Source of the DNA: Pseudovibrio axinellae
GTDB lineage: Bacteria > Pseudomonadota > Alphaproteobacteria > Rhizobiales > Stappiaceae
Reading direction: 5' to 3'
DNA length: 64,000 nt
Assembly (NCBI RefSeq): GCF_900110875.1
Contig: NZ_FOFM01000004.1
Location: forward strand, 248,001-312,000
Under the pieces are notes generated by a model. It searched no databases. It had not been told where the DNA came from and was given only the letters and a program-made list of their open reading frames with translations. A program made the position numbers and the translations under genes. Of this stretch, positions 26,619-63,737 are shown piece by piece (positions within the stretch are counted from its first letter, which is position 1; each line of letters opens with the position of its first letter).

Positions 26619-27965
26619 ATGCAGGTATCAGAAACCCTGGCCGAGGGCCTAAAGCGCGAACTCAAAGTCGTTATCCCGGCGACGGATCTGGCGACCCGCC
26701 TCGATGAATACCTTAATGACATGAAGTCAAAGGTAAACATTAACGGCTTCCGTCCGGGTAAAGTTCCAGTTGCACATCTTAAGCGTCTTCATGGCCGTCA
26801 GGCGATGGGCGAACTGATCGGCAACCTGATCAACGAAACCACCACCAAAACAATTGAAGAACGCAAAGAAAAGCCGGCTCTTCAGCCTGAAATCGATCTT
26901 TCTGACGATGACGCTGAAAAAGTTTTGGCTGGTGAAGCAGATCTTGCTTACACCATCTCTTATGAAGTTCTGCCTAAGTTCGACATCGTAGATTTCTCTA
27001 CTATTGAACTTGAGCGCCCGATCGTTGAAATCTCTGAAGACGAAGTTGACGAGCAGGTCAAACAGATCGCAGAAAGCAACCGTCCATTTGAAGCGCGCGA
27101 AGATGGTGCTGCTGCTGAAGACGGTGACCGTGTGACAATGCACTACCTGGGTAAGCTTGACGGCGAGCCATTTGAAGGTGGTGAAGATGAGAACGGTCAG
27201 CTGGTTCTGGGTTCTGGTCAGTTCATTCCTGGCTTCGAAGAGCAGGTTGTTGGCATGAAAGTTGGTGGCAAGAAAGTCATCGACGTGACCTTCCCTGAAG
27301 AATACGGCGCAGCAAACCTTGCTGGTCGCGCAGTAACCTTTGACATCGACGTGAAGGGCATTGAAGCTCCAGGCGACGTTTCCATTGATGATGAAATGGC
27401 AACCAAGCTGGGTCTTGAGTCTCTGGAGAAGCTGAAAGAAATCGTTCGTGGCCAGATTGAAAGCCAGTTCGGTGCAGCTACCCGCCAGAAAGTAAAGCGC
27501 GAGCTTTTGGACAAACTGGACGCTGAGTACACCTTCGAGTTGCCTGAAAAACTTCTGGAAACAGAATTTGACGGCGTGTGGAAGCAAGTTGAAGCTGACA
27601 TGCAGCAGGCTGGTAAAACCTTCGAAGACGAAAAAACGACCGAAGAAGAAGCTAAAGTTGAGTACCGTAAGATCTCTGAGCGTCGTGTACGCCTTGGTCT
27701 GGTTCTTTCTGAAGTTGGTGAGCAGAACAAAGTTCAGGTTACCGATGAAGAAGTACAGAAAGCTCTGTTCGATCGTGTTCGTCAGTTCCCAGGTCAAGAA
27801 CAGCAGGTGTTTGAGTTCTACAAGAACAACGAACAGGCTTTGGCTTCCCTGCGTGCCCCAATCTACGAAGAGAAGGTTGTGGACTTTATTCTTGAGCTTG
27901 CAAAAGTTTCTGACAAAGTCGTGTCCAAAGACGAGCTCCTGGCTCAGGACGAAGACGAAGCATAA
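26619..27965 (+). CDS. tig: Trigger factor
   Basis: This 448-residue ribosome-bound chaperone meets nascent chains at the exit tunnel. The ribosome-binding N-domain has the signature G-F-R-P-G-K-V-P near residue 43. The FKBP-type prolyl isomerase domain (about 160-245) shows G-D-R-V-T-M-H-Y-L-G. The C-terminal arms follow and end in an acidic tail D-E-D-E-A. Codon use is rich in the preferred codons expected of a highly expressed gene. It stands alone, followed by a strong terminator, upstream of the ClpP/ClpX/Lon protease genes. Confidence 0.97.
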   Translation: MQVSETLAEGLKRELKVVIPATDLATRLDEYLNDMKSKVNINGFRPGKVPVAHLKRLHGRQAMGELIGNLINETTTKTIEERKEKPALQPEIDLSDDDAEKVLAGEADLAYTISYEVLPKFDIVDFSTIELERPIVEISEDEVDEQVKQIAESNRPFEAREDGAAAEDGDRVTMHYLGKLDGEPFEGGEDENGQLVLGSGQFIPGFEEQVVGMKVGGKKVIDVTFPEEYGAANLAGRAVTFDIDVKGIEAPGDVSIDDEMATKLGLESLEKLKEIVRGQIESQFGAATRQKVKRELLDKLDAEYTFELPEKLLETEFDGVWKQVEADMQQAGKTFEDEKTTEEEAKVEYRKISERRVRLGLVLSEVGEQNKVQVTDEEVQKALFDRVRQFPGQEQQVFEFYKNNEQALASLRAPIYEEKVVDFILELAKVSDKVVSKDELLAQDEDEA

Positions 27966-50513: not shown

Positions 50514-52007
50514 ATGACTGCTGAGCTTCTAGCAATGCCTGATCTAATGCCAGCCTTGCCCGAGATCCTTTTGGTTCTCGGTGCATTGGCGCTGCTGATG
50601 GTTGGGGCTTTTGGTGGAGAGAAATCTACTCCACTGGTAACGGGTATCTGCGTTGCGCTGCTTACTGTTGCAGGTTTGATCCTGCTGGTTAGCCCGCATT
50701 ACGGCACGACCTTCAACGGTGCTTTCGTACAGGATGCATTTTCCCAGTACATGAAGGTGCTGGTGTTGATTGGTTCTGGCTTTGCAATTGCAATGTCGGT
50801 TGCCTACGCACGTTCTCAAAACTTTGACCGCTTTGAATACCCGATCCTGATCGTGCTCGCGACGGTTGGTATGATGCTGATGCTATCTGCCAACGATCTG
50901 ATCTCGATGTACCTGGGTGTTGAACTGCAGTCTCTTGCTTTGTACGTGGTTGCATCGATCAACCGTGACTCTGTGCGTTCAACAGAAGCGGGCCTGAAGT
51001 ACTTTGTCCTTGGGGCGTTGTCTTCAGGTATGCTGCTTTACGGCATGTCCTTCATCTACGGATTTACGGGCCATACTGACTTTGTTGGTATCGCAAGTGC
51101 GTTGACTGACGAGCAGGCATCGCGTGGTCTTGTGTTTGGTATCGCAGGTCCGTTGATTGACGAACGGGCATCGCTTGGTGTTGTGTTTGGTATCGTGTTC
51201 ATGCTGGCAGGTATTGCCTTCAAGATCTCTGCGGTTCCGTTCCACATGTGGACCCCGGATGTTTATGAGGGTGCACCAACGCCGGTAACTGCATTCTTTG
51301 CAGCTGCGCCCAAGATTGCCGCATTCGGTATGCTGGTGCGTGTGCTGATTGAAGCTCTGGGTGATGTGACCACTGACTGGCAGCAGATCGTTGTGTTCAT
51401 CTCGATCGCATCGATGGGTCTTGGTGCCTTTGCTGCTATCGGTCAAAAGAACATCAAGCGTCTGATGGCTTATTCCTCTATCGGTAATATGGGCTATGCG
51501 CTTGTCGGCCTGGCTGCGGGTACACAAGCTGGTGTTCACGGCCTGATCGTGTTCATGACTGCTTACCTTGCCATGACACTGGGTGCGTTTGCTTGCATCT
51601 TGTCCATGCGTCGTAAAGAAGGCATGGTTGAAGAGATTTCTGATCTGGCTGGTCTTTCCAAGACCAACTTGCCAATGGCGATGCTGCTGGCTGTGATTAT
51701 GTTCTCTTTGACAGGTCTGCCACCGCTTATCGGCTTCTTCGGTAAGTTCTACGTCTTTATTGCTGCTATGGAAGCTGGCCTTGTGCCACTGGTGGTGATT
51801 GGTCTGGTGGCCAGCGTTGTTGCAGCCTATTACTATCTGCGTGTTATCAAAGTGATGTTCTTTGATGAGCCAACTGGTGAATTCTTGCCAATGTCCGGCG
51901 AGATGAAAATTGTACTGGGTCTTTCCAGTGCGGTTGTTGGCCTGTTCTTCATCATGCCGGAACCGATCATGAATGCTGCTGCGAATGCAGCAAGCGTTCT
52001 GTTCTAG
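50514..52007 (+). CDS. nuoN: NADH-quinone oxidoreductase subunit N, with an internal tandem duplication
   Basis: This 497-residue antiporter-like subunit is the innermost of the three pumps. It shows the Y-L-G-V-E-L-Q-S-L segment with the pump glutamate near residue 143 and [21 protein letters not shown] near 240. Between them (residues about 197-230) an imperfect 51-bp direct repeat duplicates 17 residues, [14 protein letters not shown] then [14 protein letters not shown]. The frame is kept. It is the last nuo gene; a terminator-like hairpin follows within the next ORF. Confidence 0.95.
51101..51202 (+). repeat. 51-bp imperfect tandem repeat in nuoN
   Basis: Copy 1 is 51101-51151 and copy 2 is 51152-51202. 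The first 44 bases differ at five positions; the last seven have diverged. It adds 17 residues in frame. Confidence 0.85.
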
Positions 52008-57708: not shown

Positions 57709-58995
57709 ATGACGGCAGAGTTTCAGGCGGCTCATCCCGGCAGGACACGGTGGTTTGCACCCTTTGAGTGGATGCTGGCAGGGCGGTATTTACGTTCAAG
57801 ACGCAAAGAAACATTCATTTCTATTATTGCCGGCCTTTCTTTCCTTGGGATCACGCTTGGTGTTGCGACCTTGATCATCGTCATGGCGGTCATGAATGGG
57901 TTTCGCACTGAGTTGCTGACGAAAATTCTGGGTATCAACGGTCACGTTCTGGTGCAGCCCATTGATAGTCCGCTCAATGACTTTGATGAAACCACTCTTA
58001 AACTGACCGGTATTGATGGCGTTGACTTTGCTATGCCTTTTGTTGAAGGGCAGGCAATGATTTCGGGCCCCGGTGCTGACCTTGGGGCATTGTTTCGCGG
58101 TGTACGCAAGTCTGACCTTGATAAGTTGAGCCTTGTTTCCGACAATGTGTTGCTGGGAACGCTTGATGGGTTTGATGAAGGTGATGGCATCGCAATCGGG
58201 TCGCGTCTTGCTCGCCAGCTTGGCGTGAGCATTGGCGACAGCGTGCGTGTGATTACACCGCGCGGCAGTATAACCCCAATGGGTATGACGCCGCGTGTGA
58301 AGGCCTATCCCGTCTCTGCGATTTTCCAGATCGGCATGAGCGAGTATGATGGTACGATCGCTTTCATGCCATTCAACGAAGCGCAGCTTTATTTCAATAA
58401 GGAGGGCCTGGCTACGGGTATTGAGGTTTATGCCGATGACCCAGATGCCGTTGGCCCATTGCGCCCGCTCATTGAAGAGGCCGCAGAACGACCTGTCTTT
58501 GTTTCTGACTGGCGTCAACGCAATATGACGTTCTTCTCTGCGCTTGAAGTTGAGCGCAACGTTATGTTCCTGATTTTGACACTGATTGTGCTTGTGGCTG
58601 CTTTGAATATCATTTCAGGCATGACTATGCTGGTGAAAGATAAGGGCCGCGATATCGCAGTGTTACGCACGATGGGTGCGACCCGTGGCGCTGTCATGCG
58701 GATTTTTATCATCACTGGTGCAAGTATTGGAACCATCGGAACATTTGCCGGATTTTTGCTGGGGACGCTGGTGTGCTGGAATATTGAAAGCATTCGTCAG
58801 GCAATTTCCTGGATGACGTCAACAGAGCTGTTTTCGCCTGAACTTTATTTCTTGTCGAAGTTGCCAGCTGAGATGGATACCGGTGAAACGGCGAGTGTTG
58901 TTCTCATGGCTCTCGTTTTGAGCTTGCTGGCTACGATATACCCTGCCTGGCGTGCAGCCCGGCTCGATCCTGTTGAGGCTTTGCGCTACGAATGA
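57709..58995 (+). CDS. lolC: Lipoprotein-releasing ABC transporter permease (LolC/LolE)
   Basis: This 428-residue inner-membrane permease helps free lipoproteins from the inner membrane for carriage to the outer membrane. It has the FtsX-type layout: a helix near 40-62, a large periplasmic domain (about 65-280), and three more helices near 290-315, 335-360 and 395-415. The motif [19 protein letters not shown] coupling to the ATPase is clear. One gene serves as permease here, the single-gene form common outside enterics. The start is uncertain: ATG 57709 has GGAGA 10 nt upstream; ATG 57661 adds 16 residues and lacks a site. lolD overlaps its end by 4 bp. Confidence 0.92.
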
Positions 58996-59726
58996 TGAAT
59001 AAACCAACAAAACCGGTGGAAGGCGTGTCTCTGAACGGCGAGGAGCGTGTTCCTGTATTGAGTCTGCAAGGCGTTTCCAGAAGTTTTGATGAGGGTGCGA
59101 GTAAACTTGAAATCTTAAAGGGCGCAGACCTGAACCTTTATGAAGGGGAGATGGTTGCCCTTGTTGCGCCTTCTGGTGCCGGAAAATCAACACTGATGCA
59201 CCTTGCTGGCCTGCTTGAAAAACCGCAGAGTGGCGAAATCATGATTGGTGGGCGGGAATGTTCCAAGCTCAACGATGAAGCGCGCACTGCTATTCGGCGC
59301 ACAGATATTGGATTTGTTTATCAGTTTCATCAGCTCCTTCCTGAATTTACTGCTTTGGAAAATATTGCGTTGCCGCAGATGATTTGCGGGTTGAAGCGCA
59401 AGGATGCAGAAGAGCGGGCGCGGCAGTTGCTCTCATATATGCGGTTGACGGATCGCGAGACACATCGCCCGGCAGAGCTGTCTGGTGGTGAACAGCAGCG
59501 TGTCGCGATTGCTCGCGCAGTTGCAAATGCCCCTCGTGTTCTGCTTGCCGATGAGCCAACCGGCAATTTGGACCCCAAAACATCGCAGTATGTGTTTGAG
59601 GCGCTTACTGCGTTGGTGCGTGCCTCAGGAGTTGCTGCACTGCTTGCGACGCATAACCTTGATATCGCCAAGCAAATGGACCGGCGAATAACGCTCAAAG
59701 ACGGCAAGGTTGTCGAGCTTCCATAA
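58992..59726 (+). CDS. lolD: Lipoprotein-releasing ABC transporter ATP-binding protein
   Basis: This 244-residue ATPase drives LolC. Walker A is A-P-S-G-A-G-K-S-T near residue 62, Q-loop Y-Q-F-H-Q-L-L-P near 115, signature L-S-G-G-E-Q-Q-R near 160, and Walker [12 protein letters not shown] near 180. The ATG overlaps the lolC stop (ATGA). A strong terminator follows, so lolC-lolD end a unit. Confidence 0.95.
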
Positions 59727-59735
59727 TGTTTCAAG

Positions 59736-59763
59736 TGCCAGCGATGTCCTCGCTGGCATTTTT
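59736..59763 (+). terminator. lolD intrinsic terminator
   Basis: TGCCAGCGA (59736-59744), loop TGTCC, TCGCTGGCA (59750-59758), then five T. Confidence 0.95.
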
Positions 59764-59999
59764 GTATTTTGACAATGTTCTCCCATATTTCTCCTCGCCA
59801 TTGACCAATGTAAAGCGCATTCGCTATGGGCTGCCGCGCGTAATTCCCCAGAAGTATTAACGCAAATGAATCAGTTAACTGTTTGACTTGAAAGGCTGAA
59901 ATTCTCGGCCATTAGTGGTTGGCGTTTGCCTGTCTTGCTTACATAAACAGATCATTAACCAACCGGACAACTGGGCTATTTTGGGGGTTGTGTGAAATA

Positions 60000-60014
60000 G
60001 AACATTTGTGGAAC
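60000..60014. promoter_or_regulatory. LexA (SOS) box
   Basis: GAAC-ATTTGTG-GAAC, which reads GTTC-N7-GTTC on the other strand. This is exactly the direct-repeat LexA site established for alphaproteobacteria. It lies 42 bp before a small ORF; a TTGTGG overlapping its right end could serve as -35 with TAGTGT at 60030-60035 as -10. Confidence 0.75.
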
Positions 60015-60055
60015 ATAGCATGTACAAATAGTGTTCAAATTAGTGGGTGTTCATT

Positions 60056-60157
60056 ATGGCATATATTCTGCGCGAAGCTGCTGCATTCGGTTCTGTTGTC
60101 CTTTTTGGTAGCAGTTGTTTGATCTGGGGAGAGGCTTTGACGCGTATCTTGCCCTAG
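60056..60157 (+). CDS. 33-residue single-pass membrane peptide, probably SOS-induced
   Basis: ATG 60056 opens 33 codons to TAG 60155. It begins M-A-Y-I-L-R-E-A-A-A-F-G and has one hydrophobic helix at about residues 8-26 that contains S-S-C-L-I-W, and ends T-R-I-L-P. The N-terminal R-E and C-terminal R would frame a helix of inner-membrane length. The ribosome site is weak (GTGGG, 8 nt). A consensus LexA box lies 42 bp upstream, so expression after DNA damage is expected. Caulobacter SidA, a 29-residue SOS-induced membrane inhibitor of division, is the closest functional parallel I know; sequence homology is not claimed. Confidence 0.65.
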   Translation: MAYILREAAAFGSVVLFGSSCLIWGEALTRILP

Positions 60158-60302
60158 GCTTTATACTGCGCGTTAAAGGGGAGAACCTTTGGGAAACTCG
60201 GGATAACCGACCTTCCATTTTTTTCCAGAATTGCATTTTGCTTTAGGCTCCTCCAAATGAGGTGTTACTGTCGCTCATATTCAGCGAACTAAAAGGTTCA
60301 AG

Positions 60303-63300
60303 ATGTCATCTCCAGGCTTTGTCCATCTTCGCGTTCATTCTGCATTTTCTTTGCTGGAAGGGGCTTTGCCCATAGGCAAGCTGATTGATCTTGCGTCCAA
60401 GGATGAGCAACCTGCTCTTGCAATTACCGATAGCGGGAACCTTTTTGGGGCTCTGGAGTTTTCGGAAAAAGCGTTTGGCTCTGGGCTGCAGCCCATTGTC
60501 GGGTGTCAGGTTTGCGTTAATTTTGGTGACCAGCCTGACGCTGTTGGGGATGAAGCTGTCAGTGACTTGGTGCTTCTGGCAGTCAACGAACAAGGCTACG
60601 AAAACCTGATGGACCTTGTGTCCCGCGCATTTTTGGACACCGAGCCGGGTCTTAAGGCGAGTGTGCCTCTTGCCCGCGTGCTGGATAAATCCGCGGGTGT
60701 GATTGCGTTGACAGGTGCTAGCGAAGGGCCCATCAACTCACTGTTGCTTGAAGGTGAAGGCGCGCTCGCAAAGTCCCGTTTGGAAGTTTTGAAGGGTGTG
60801 TTTGGGGATCGCCTTTATGTGGAGCTGCAGCGCCACAATATGAAAGGTGAGGAAGATGTTGAGGCCGAGCTCCTTAACCTTGCCTATGCTTTAAGTATCC
60901 CCATTGTTGCGACCAATGAATCATTTTTTCCCAATCCTGATGATTATGAGGCACATGATGCTCTCATTGCGATCTCAGAAGGGCGTGTGATTGTTGAGAC
61001 TGATCGACGGCAGTTGACGCCGGACCATTGCTTTAAAACACGCCAGCAAATGATGGAGCTGTTTTCTGACCTACCGGAAGCGTTGGAGAATTCGGTCAAT
61101 ATTGCACGCCGGTGTCATTATCGGCCACTGAAACGAGCACCTATTTTGCCCCGATTTGCAGGTGCTGATGCAGATGGCGAGGAGGCTGAGCGCGCTGAAT
61201 CAGATGAGTTGACCCGTCAGGCGAAAGAGGGGCTGCGTGCACGTTTAGACCTGCACGGACTTGCGCCTGACCTTGAAGAAAAAGATTACTGGGACCGGTT
61301 GGATTACGAGCTGGGCATCATCATTCGGATGAAATTCCCAGGTTACTTCCTGATCGTTGCTGACTTTATTAAGTGGGCAAAAGGGCAGGATATCCCGGTG
61401 GGCCCTGGTCGTGGCTCTGGTGCTGGTTCGCTTGTTGCCTGGTCTTTGACCATTACCGACCTGGATCCGATGCGGTTCTCATTGCTGTTTGAACGTTTTC
61501 TGAATCCAGACCGCGTTTCCATGCCGGATTTTGATATCGATTTTTGCCAGAATAGGCGAGAAGAGGTGATCCGTTATGTTCAGCGCAAGTATGGCCGCGA
61601 GCAGGTTGCGCAGATCATTACCTTTGGAACGTTGCAGGCCAAGGCTGTGCTGCGCGATGTGGGGCGTGTCTTGCAGATGCCCTATGGCCAGGTGGATCGT
61701 CTTAGTAAGCTTGTTCCAGGCAACCCCGCTAACCCTGTGACTTTGAGCGAGGCGCTTGAACAAGAGCCGCGATTGCGCGAAGCGACAAAGCAGGAGGAGG
61801 TGGTTGATCGCCTCTTGAAGATGGCGCAAAAGCTGGAAGGGCTTTATCGTCACGCTTCAACCCACGCGGCAGGTGTTGTTATCGGGGACCGCCCGTTAGA
61901 ACAGCTTGTCCCACTGTACCGCGATCCGCGTTCCGACATGCCTGTCGCGCAGTTCAATATGAAGTGGGTGGAGGCTGCCGGTCTTGTTAAGTTTGACTTT
62001 CTTGGCCTGAAAACACTTACGGTTATTGATACAGCTGTGGCGCATATCAAAAAGCGTGGTATCAACGTAAAGATTGAAGAAATCCCGATTGATGACCCTG
62101 CAACTTATAAGCTGCTTGCCGCCAGTGAGACCGTTGGCGTGTTCCAGCTGGAAAGTCAGGGCATGCGGCGGGCGATTGCTGGGATGCGGCCTGACAGGTT
62201 TGAGGATATTATTGCGTTGGTGGCGCTGTACCGGCCCGGCCCAATGGATAATATTCCAATCTACAACGCTGTTAAACATGGAGAGCAAGAGCCGGACTAC
62301 CTTCACCCGCTTCTTGAACCTATCCTGACTGAAACGAACGGCATTATCGTTTATCAGGAACAGGTGATGCAGATCGCCCAGGTGTTGTCTGGCTACTCCC
62401 TTGGTGAAGCGGATTTGCTGCGCCGTGCGATGGGTAAAAAGATTGCCGCTGAAATGGAAATTCAGAGGGCGCGGTTTGTGGAAGGGGCCGTTGCGCAAGA
62501 GGTCAATAAAGATCAGGCCGGAATGATCTACGACCTTGTTGCTAAGTTTGCAAACTACGGCTTCAACAAATCTCACGCGGCAGCCTATGCGCTGGTGGCC
62601 TATCAAACAGCTTGGTTAAAGGCGAACTATCCGGTTGAGTTTCTCGCTGGCATCATGACGCTCGACCTTGGAAATACAGATAAGCTCAGTGATTTTCGCC
62701 AGGAAGCTCTGCGTATGGGCATTGAGGTTGTGCCCCCTTCAGTCAATAAATCTGGTGTGCATTTTGATGTTCTAGATGGAAAGATTGTCTACGCCATGGG
62801 GGCGATTAAGGGTGTCGGTGAGCAAGCGGTTGAGCATATCGTAGAGGTGCGCGGGGACAAGCCTTTTGCTGACATGGCTGACTTTGCAACGCGCATCAGT
62901 CCTAAGGTTCTTAATAAGCGTACTATCGAAAACCTTATTGCTGCAGGCGCTTTTGATGAAATGAACGCCAACCGTGCACAGTTGCTGGATGGTCTGGAGC
63001 GCATTGTTGGTATGGCGCAGCGTACGGAGGAGAATAAAACCTCTGGGCAAAATGACTTTTTTGGCGGAGATAGTGCGCCTGAGCCGCTCATTCTCAACCC
63101 TACTGATCCGTGGCTTCCATCTGAGCGTTTGCAAAAAGAGTATGCTGCGGTTGGGTTTTATATTTCTGCCCATCCGCTTGATGAATATCACAACTTGTTC
63201 ACCAAGTTGCGCGTGCAGCTTTGGAAGGACTTTGAGCGATCAGTCAAAGCAGGCTCTTCTGCCGGGCGTTTGGCTGGGACTGTAACTGCAAAACAAGAGC

Positions 63301-63737
63301 GCAAGACCCGTACCGGGAACCAAATGGGTATTGTGCGAATTTCAGATCCGACAGGGCAATACGAAGCAGTTCTTTTTTCTGAGACGCTTAATCAGTGTCG
63401 TGATTTGCTTGAGCCGGGGCAATCTGTTGTGCTGCTCGTTCAAGCTGACATGCGCGATGATGAAGTGAGTGTGCGTATTTCTCAGGTGGAACCATTGGAG
63501 AAGGTGGCTGGCAGGGTGCATCGGACCTTGCGGGTCTTCCTTAATTCAGATGAGCCGATACAAAGTCTGAAGCGCCAGTTGCGCCGGGGGGGCGATGGCG
63601 AGGTGAGCTGCGTTGTACTGTTGGATAACGGTCAGCGCGAAGTGGAGGTCAAACTTCCGGGCAACTATCAGCTCTCGCCACAACTTTCTGGCGCGTTGAA
63701 GACACTGCCAGGTGTGATGGACGTTCAGATGTCTTAG
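60303..63737 (+). CDS. dnaE: DNA polymerase III alpha subunit
   Basis: This 1144-residue protein is the replicative polymerase. The N-terminal PHP domain starts H-L-R-V-H-S-A-F-S-L-L. The palm has the acidic pair in M-P-D-F-D-I-D-F near residue 408 and the G-P-G-R-G-S-G-A-G-S segment near 367. A helix-hairpin-helix region and an OB domain follow (after about 960). Length and the C-terminal beta-clamp/tau-binding region argue for DnaE1, not the shorter mutagenic DnaE2 that sits in imuAB operons. AAAGG precedes the ATG. The LexA box lies 289 bp upstream, but the SOS promoter reading is better suited to the small ORF. Confidence 0.96.
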   Translation: MSSPGFVHLRVHSAFSLLEGALPIGKLIDLASKDEQPALAITDSGNLFGALEFSEKAFGSGLQPIVGCQVCVNFGDQPDAVGDEAVSDLVLLAVNEQGYENLMDLVSRAFLDTEPGLKASVPLARVLDKSAGVIALTGASEGPINSLLLEGEGALAKSRLEVLKGVFGDRLYVELQRHNMKGEEDVEAELLNLAYALSIPIVATNESFFPNPDDYEAHDALIAISEGRVIVETDRRQLTPDHCFKTRQQMMELFSDLPEALENSVNIARRCHYRPLKRAPILPRFAGADADGEEAERAESDELTRQAKEGLRARLDLHGLAPDLEEKDYWDRLDYELGIIIRMKFPGYFLIVADFIKWAKGQDIPVGPGRGSGAGSLVAWSLTITDLDPMRFSLLFERFLNPDRVSMPDFDIDFCQNRREEVIRYVQRKYGREQVAQIITFGTLQAKAVLRDVGRVLQMPYGQVDRLSKLVPGNPANPVTLSEALEQEPRLREATKQEEVVDRLLKMAQKLEGLYRHASTHAAGVVIGDRPLEQLVPLYRDPRSDMPVAQFNMKWVEAAGLVKFDFLGLKTLTVIDTAVAHIKKRGINVKIEEIPIDDPATYKLLAASETVGVFQLESQGMRRAIAGMRPDRFEDIIALVALYRPGPMDNIPIYNAVKHGEQEPDYLHPLLEPILTETNGIIVYQEQVMQIAQVLSGYSLGEADLLRRAMGKKIAAEMEIQRARFVEGAVAQEVNKDQAGMIYDLVAKFANYGFNKSHAAAYALVAYQTAWLKANYPVEFLAGIMTLDLGNTDKLSDFRQEALRMGIEVVPPSVNKSGVHFDVLDGKIVYAMGAIKGVGEQAVEHIVEVRGDKPFADMADFATRISPKVLNKRTIENLIAAGAFDEMNANRAQLLDGLERIVGMAQRTEENKTSGQNDFFGGDSAPEPLILNPTDPWLPSERLQKEYAAVGFYISAHPLDEYHNLFTKLRVQLWKDFERSVKAGSSAGRLAGTVTAKQERKTRTGNQMGIVRISDPTGQYEAVLFSETLNQCRDLLEPGQSVVLLVQADMRDDEVSVRISQVEPLEKVAGRVHRTLRVFLNSDEPIQSLKRQLRRGGDGEVSCVVLLDNGQREVEVKLPGNYQLSPQLSGALKTLPGVMDVQMS

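Follow-up and report, generated by a model that had tools for sequence, protein, structure and literature searches.

A conserved gene for a predicted membrane micropeptide behind a LexA-type box in front of dnaE, probably an orthologue of Caulobacter sidA

SidA of Caulobacter crescentus is a 29-residue inner-membrane protein (PMC4211646) encoded by CCNA_02004 (PMC10769358), and the dnaE gene of the same species is CC1926 (PMC1839093). Suppressors have pointed to A31, F145 and A246 of C. crescentus FtsW, and the F145L substitution relieves both SidA and a second small peptide, DidA. Among the SOS peptides of other bacteria, DinQ is a toxic protein with a single transmembrane segment (PMC3567139). 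In Sinorhizobium meliloti, a 2023 study demonstrated by Ribo-seq that sORF25, located in the 5'-UTR of dnaE1, is translated, and its authors proposed that at least some such ORFs may act as regulatory upstream ORFs (uORFs) (PMC10117765); the main text of that article contains none of the terms SOS, LexA or SidA. The way in which division is halted after DNA damage in alphaproteobacteria outside Caulobacter seems to be little described, and our search of the open-access literature brought up no mention of a SidA homologue in another genus; the founding SidA paper may discuss conservation. Here, we analyse a short ORF situated between lolD and dnaE in a 64,000-nucleotide stretch of the Pseudovibrio axinellae genome, hereafter the window (contig NZ_FOFM01000004.1, positions 248,001 to 312,000), and we compare its locus and sequence with those of SidA.

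The short ORF of the lolD-dnaE spacer

A preliminary description of this DNA had reported a LexA box followed by a 33-codon ORF with one membrane helix. Both elements are present (Table 1). The box, GAACATTTGTGGAAC, is separated by 41 nt from the ATG at 60056, from which the peptide reads MAYILREAAAFGSVVLFGSSCLIWGEALTRILP up to a TAG stop codon (60155-60157); an in-frame GTG located three codons 5' of the ATG is a possible alternative start. AlphaFold2, supplied with a 16-row alignment, predicts one helix spanning residues 2-31 with a mean pLDDT of 93.8, and residues 8-25 do not include a single charged residue. At the Shine-Dalgarno-like position, relatives carry AAGGGTG or GGAGTG.

Table 1 Features of the lolD-dnaE region, in window coordinates
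Feature	Coordinates	Strand	Basis or remark
lolD, upstream neighbour	58992..59726	+	244-aa ORF; name from the preliminary description and reading of the translation
Terminator-like hairpin 3' of lolD	59733..59761	+	stem of 12 pairs, 6 of them G-C, T-rich tail
LexA-type box, GAAC-N7-GAAC	60000..60014	+	exact motif match
Weak Shine-Dalgarno-like GTGGGTG	60043..60049	+	suggested by reading of the sequence
Probable SidA orthologue, 33 codons, one predicted membrane helix	60056..60157	+	ORF, conservation, pN/pS, helix prediction
Conserved stretch between peptide and dnaE	60181..60302	+	alignment of 9 genomes of the window's genus
dnaE, replicative DNA polymerase III alpha subunit	60303..63737	+	1144-aa ORF; transcript possibly common with the peptide

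The gene had also been called hidden, a claim that is modestly supported. The window peptide has no match at E<=1 among the Pfam and NCBIfam models and none in PHROGs. In S. meliloti Ak57 (CP090106), the homologue falls into an unannotated gap preceding dnaE, the gene table of this record being known to have omissions. The matches obtained with relatives stayed below cut-off, with E 0.021 and 15.4 bits against a required 27 for the S. meliloti peptide and PF17280, and E 0.36 for the C. crescentus peptide and phrog_3961.

The layout of the spacer gives indications on how the peptide gene may be transcribed. The hairpin that follows lolD, only suggestive since two terminator-like sites were detected in the region against 1.0 expected, raises the possibility that the peptide gene has its own promoter; a scan for sigma-70-type promoters around the box returned 0 sites, with 1.2 expected. 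One weak terminator-like hairpin lies within the peptide ORF, and the scan detected no terminator-like site between the ORF stop and dnaE, making a transcript shared with dnaE plausible in the window organism. Among nine genomes of the window's genus, the conserved stretch preceding dnaE and the peptide ORF have 55% and 50% of their positions identical in all, as opposed to 12% and 4% in the flanks (59770-59985 and 60158-60180, respectively). The stretch is possibly a dnaE leader or promoter element. It has no match in Rfam, and throughout the lolD-dnaE spacer nothing was found at E<=1 besides Esr41, a sub-threshold match (21.5 bits against 102) placed over the lolD terminator, which was rejected as an RNA element.

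Conservation was followed throughout the window's GTDB family. A tblastn search with the peptide (E<=1) yielded matches in all 87 genomes, and all 87 places were fetched. In 86 of them, the dnaE motif follows the match within 700 nt, the exception being G026, which has a weak match elsewhere and whose dnaE upstream region yielded no peptide homologue. An intact ORF is present in 85/87 genomes. An exact box occurs within 220 nt 5' of it in 77 genomes, a number that rises to 85 if one mismatch is allowed. The 7-nt spacer between the two halves is variable, the 77 exact boxes comprising 39 different sequences, and an A directly follows the second GAAC in 76 of these 77. The ORF stop and the dnaE motif are 48 to 542 nt apart. 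For the window's genus, pN/pS was calculated from the nine of 16 genomes that have gap-free 33-codon ORFs; it is 0.19 in frame, and the two other frames give 1.06 and 2.63. Of 34 codons, 29 show no variation at the second position and 3 none at the third; across 18 chosen rows, R6, A10, W24 and L28 are invariant, and the hydrophobic core of the peptide is preserved in the alignments. In one genome of the window's genus, G025 (L010), whose assembly is highly fragmented, the ORF is interrupted by an in-frame stop and has no box, perhaps representing a natural knock-out. Together with the lack of a homologue in G026, this case indicates that the peptide gene is dispensable. We conclude that the ORF at 60056-60157 is a real gene, with a conserved coding sequence.

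Counterparts in Caulobacter and in rhizobia

One of the genomes compared, G727, is presumably that of C. crescentus, as its PopZ is 100% identical to the C. crescentus protein; its FtsW carries A31, F145 and A246 in the literature numbering for this species. In front of its dnaE lies a box, GAACATCTTGTGAAC, followed by a 29-codon membrane ORF, and a lolD-like tail is found about 1.3 kb upstream of dnaE. Length, box and locus make this ORF a strong candidate for sidA. Among the 149 genomes searched in the C. crescentus GTDB family, 17 were examined, and all 17 display a 29-codon membrane ORF at the same place upstream of dnaE, preceded by a box that is exact in 14 cases and has one mismatch in three. 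A lolD-like tail is located upstream in 14 of these 17 genomes (loci L079-L095), the lolD motif not being seen in the other three. Its position varies: 8/10 genomes of the C. crescentus genus have it 1.3-1.4 kb ahead of the dnaE match, and 5/7 other genomes of the family have it 0.3-0.7 kb ahead.

The sequence resemblance was evaluated with a profile of 28 peptides drawn from the window's order only, each peptide scored being compared to 3000 composition-matched decoys. For five of seven Caulobacter-family peptides, the score was reached by 0, 0, 1, 2 and 10 decoys, the last value being that of C. crescentus; three of these five are close relatives of each other. The two remaining peptides were not distinguished from decoys (98 and 513 of 3000). 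The preliminary description had likened the window ORF to SidA by analogy and had suggested a comparison of position and sequence with Caulobacter sidA. The position, from lolD to dnaE, is the same, and the sequence beats the decoys for the five peptides just mentioned, so that the likeness extends beyond analogy. Based on the common locus and the sequence resemblance, the window peptide is probably a SidA orthologue, and not only an analogue.

A similar arrangement was found in rhizobia. Named loci were taken from the best 80 of 371, and the genomes of 30 were searched. A box and a short membrane ORF precede dnaE in 24 of these 30 named genomes, which belong to Rhizobium, Sinorhizobium/Ensifer, Mycoplana, Ferirhizobium and Phyllobacterium. 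No such pair was found in front of dnaE in Mesorhizobium (4/4) or Dongia, and its presence cannot be judged in Aminobacter, where dnaE is located 397 nt from the contig end. Calculated for 20 of the 24 peptide-bearing named genomes, S. fredii and three Phyllobacterium being excluded, pN/pS amounts to 0.32 in frame, against 0.93 and 4.04 in the other frames. Taken together, these comparisons bear out what the preliminary description had looked for in relatives with regard to synonymous bias and box conservation; as for the ORF itself, it is kept by most relatives (85/87 in the family and 24/30 named genomes) and missing or broken in G025, G026 and Mesorhizobium.

In S. meliloti 4H41, a 28-codon homologue, MADFVRDLAAFASMSLFIVSISVIALGL, lies behind two overlapping boxes, and the scan identified it as the one short membrane-type ORF before dnaE. 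The gene order in S. meliloti Ak57 is that of the window, with proline-tRNA ligase, lipoprotein-releasing permease, ATP-binding protein, peptide and dnaE; the product of lolD is likewise an ABC transporter ATP-binding protein. The S. meliloti peptide also matched five plasmid records, three of which were inspected: dnaE adjoins the peptide in one, and two have no annotation there. sORF25 is a translated small ORF in the dnaE1 leader, and MADFVRDLAAFASMSLFIVSISVIALGL is equated with it by place only.

Box frequency and spread across Alphaproteobacteria

Taken by itself, the box is not rare. The window contains three exact GAAC-N7-GAAC matches against 1.97 expected, and the genome 46 matches to GAACN7GAACA against 47 for the reversed control. 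Both counts being at chance level, box enrichment was dropped as evidence. The other two boxes of the window, at 26967 within a 448-aa ORF that we take to be trigger-factor-like and at 51996 where a 497-aa ORF ends, are not clear promoters. What raises the box and ORF above chance is that the box, the ORF and their place upstream of dnaE are conserved. The same type of box is found 150 nt before the lexA match of this genome (TIGR00498, over cut-off), twice between the divergent uvrA and ssb genes, and before an imuB-like ORF, where it lies within the end of the preceding ORF, the last three genes being named from their translations. The box at the peptide ORF thus fits, by its sequence, those of the SOS genes of this genome.

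The class was surveyed through 110 dnaE upstream regions, the window's own included, from 186 genomes with a dnaE match. These regions comprise 90 of the 91 best matches, the one left out being G605, which carries a box and a membrane ORF, and a further 20 hand-selected weaker matches, including G466, which had already been found to carry both. An exact box is present within 950 nt of dnaE in 21/110 regions, and in 20 of these it is followed by a membrane ORF of 24-50 codons (16 among the 90 best matches and 4 among the 20 hand-picked). Shuffles that roughly keep dinucleotides (20 repeats) gave 0.95 boxes and 0.0 box-ORF pairs per set, and the reverse strand gave six boxes and no pair. The 20 positive regions span 13 GTDB families, that of the window included, to which the C. 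crescentus family and the named rhizobia add further bearers outside the class sample. In the remaining 89/110 regions, no exact box was found within 950 nt of dnaE, so that most of the genomes sampled either lack the unit, have it at another place or retain it in degenerate form.

The sequence support for the distant candidates is mixed. When 15 of them were submitted to the decoy test, eight had scores reached by 0, 0, 0, 0, 1, 2, 7 and 12 of 3000 decoys, and the other seven by 52 (G583), 69 (G504), 126 (G602), 186 (G585), 232 (G520), 457 (G127) and 695 (G588). Profile searches returned 123/397 genomes of the window's order at E<=0.01, for part of which the place was checked, and 18/337 genomes of the class at E<=0.05. 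Inspection of these 18 places revealed dnaE nearby in six by script, and also in G466 and G166 by coordinates. It is tempting to speculate that a SidA-type peptide before dnaE represents an ancestral alphaproteobacterial SOS checkpoint unit, expressed as one LexA-controlled transcript with dnaE; we put this forward tentatively, as a conceivable scenario that remains rather doubtful.

A second SidA-like peptide (e.g. MIIRDILALGSLITFMTMIGVWASILF) was observed elsewhere in the genome in GTDB family f44, at loci L259 (G256), L260 (G349), L261 (G414) and L262 (G168). No exact LexA box was found in the fetched stretch, and one of these paralogues, used as query for a phage origin, had no match in the phage collection.

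Proposed function and relation to known systems

We consider it likely that the window ORF is a SidA orthologue, a LexA-repressed peptide that holds FtsW/FtsI/FtsN inactive after DNA damage. This proposal builds on the box, the conserved coding sequence, the helix prediction, the shared locus and the sequence similarity, and we infer LexA control, contact with FtsW/FtsN and division arrest from C. crescentus. In such a mechanism, LexA bound to the box would keep the peptide gene off, and RecA-driven cleavage of LexA upon DNA damage would free the promoter. The 33-residue peptide would then insert into the inner membrane by its single transmembrane helix and contact FtsW (and FtsN), the assembled FtsW/FtsI/FtsN complex being held inactive and septum synthesis halted until repair is complete. 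As the message may extend into dnaE, the replicase could rise together with the division block.

The same ORF could instead serve as a leader peptide or regulatory uORF, its translation adjusting dnaE expression and its product being inert. The S. meliloti ORF indeed sits in the dnaE1 5'-UTR, and some such ORFs have been suggested to be uORFs (PMC10117765); the uninterrupted passage from the ORF stop to dnaE in the terminator scan and the conservation of the stretch preceding dnaE in the genus point in the same direction. However, what is conserved is the amino-acid sequence, as shown by the in-frame pN/pS set against those of the other frames, a pattern at odds with a function independent of sequence. 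Moreover, the alignments retain the hydrophobic core, the distance from stop to dnaE motif is variable in the family, and SidA, which the C. crescentus counterpart fits, is a trans-acting peptide. We therefore regard a purely regulatory ORF as unlikely. Size, single helix and probable SOS control are equally those of a membrane peptide of the TisB/DinQ type, which would depolarise the membrane and slow growth, leaving the divisome untouched. Against such an activity, the locus and the sequence pattern are shared with the Caulobacter peptide, and the helix core is uncharged in the window peptide, unlike that of TisB; we judge this possibility quite improbable. Finally, a chance box next to a chance ORF could be invoked from the frequency of the box alone, but the conservation, the constraint specific to one frame, and the controls with shuffled sequences and with the reverse strand reduce this coincidence to a negligible probability, and a chance ORF is ruled out by conservation and pN/pS.

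The SidA-type reading should nevertheless be considered in light of its putative partner. One FtsW/RodA-family protein is found in the window's genome (L435), one in S. meliloti and two in C. crescentus. Compared to that of C. crescentus, the window FtsW has L in place of F145, S in place of A246 and G in place of A31; the S. meliloti FtsW keeps A, F and A at the three positions 31, 145 and 246. These changes at three suppressor positions imply that the fit of the peptide to FtsW has changed, or that another contact matters, and they make it less likely that the Caulobacter mechanism carries over unaltered to the window organism.

Provided that the family is real, a single short gene acting by a known mechanism would explain the damage-induced division halt in the window's family, in many rhizobia and in several other families, the translated S. 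meliloti ORF would gain a function, and many natural variants would become available to map how a peptide of 30 residues stops FtsW/FtsI. In that case, gene callers may also be missing a conserved checkpoint gene across a whole class. During bacteroid differentiation, division stops and DNA replication continues; if the ancestral unit exists, in rhizobia it could be a switch that stops division while DNA copying goes on.

The peptide probably belongs to a known kind, that of SidA, its unexpected part being its wide distribution in front of dnaE. Several other small division inhibitors resemble it by description only. DidA of C. crescentus is a small membrane peptide that blocks division via FtsW/FtsI/FtsN, but it is SOS-independent, being under DriD, and binds FtsN (PMC4211646). 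YneA and SosA are SOS-induced division inhibitors (PMC13396833, PMC6851548), but they differ in lineage, being from Firmicutes. The closest likeness is with SidA, here represented by its presumed ORF in C. crescentus, with which the window peptide shares a LexA-type box upstream, a single-helix membrane peptide of about 30 residues and a gene between lolD and dnaE. The two differ in length (33 residues against 29), in the conserved tryptophan, more C-terminal here (position 24, compared to 19 in Caulobacter), and in the acidic residue that follows the tryptophan in the window peptide, unlike in SidA. By contrast, R6, E/D7, A10, S13 and F17 are common to the window peptide and the C. crescentus ORF taken as SidA.
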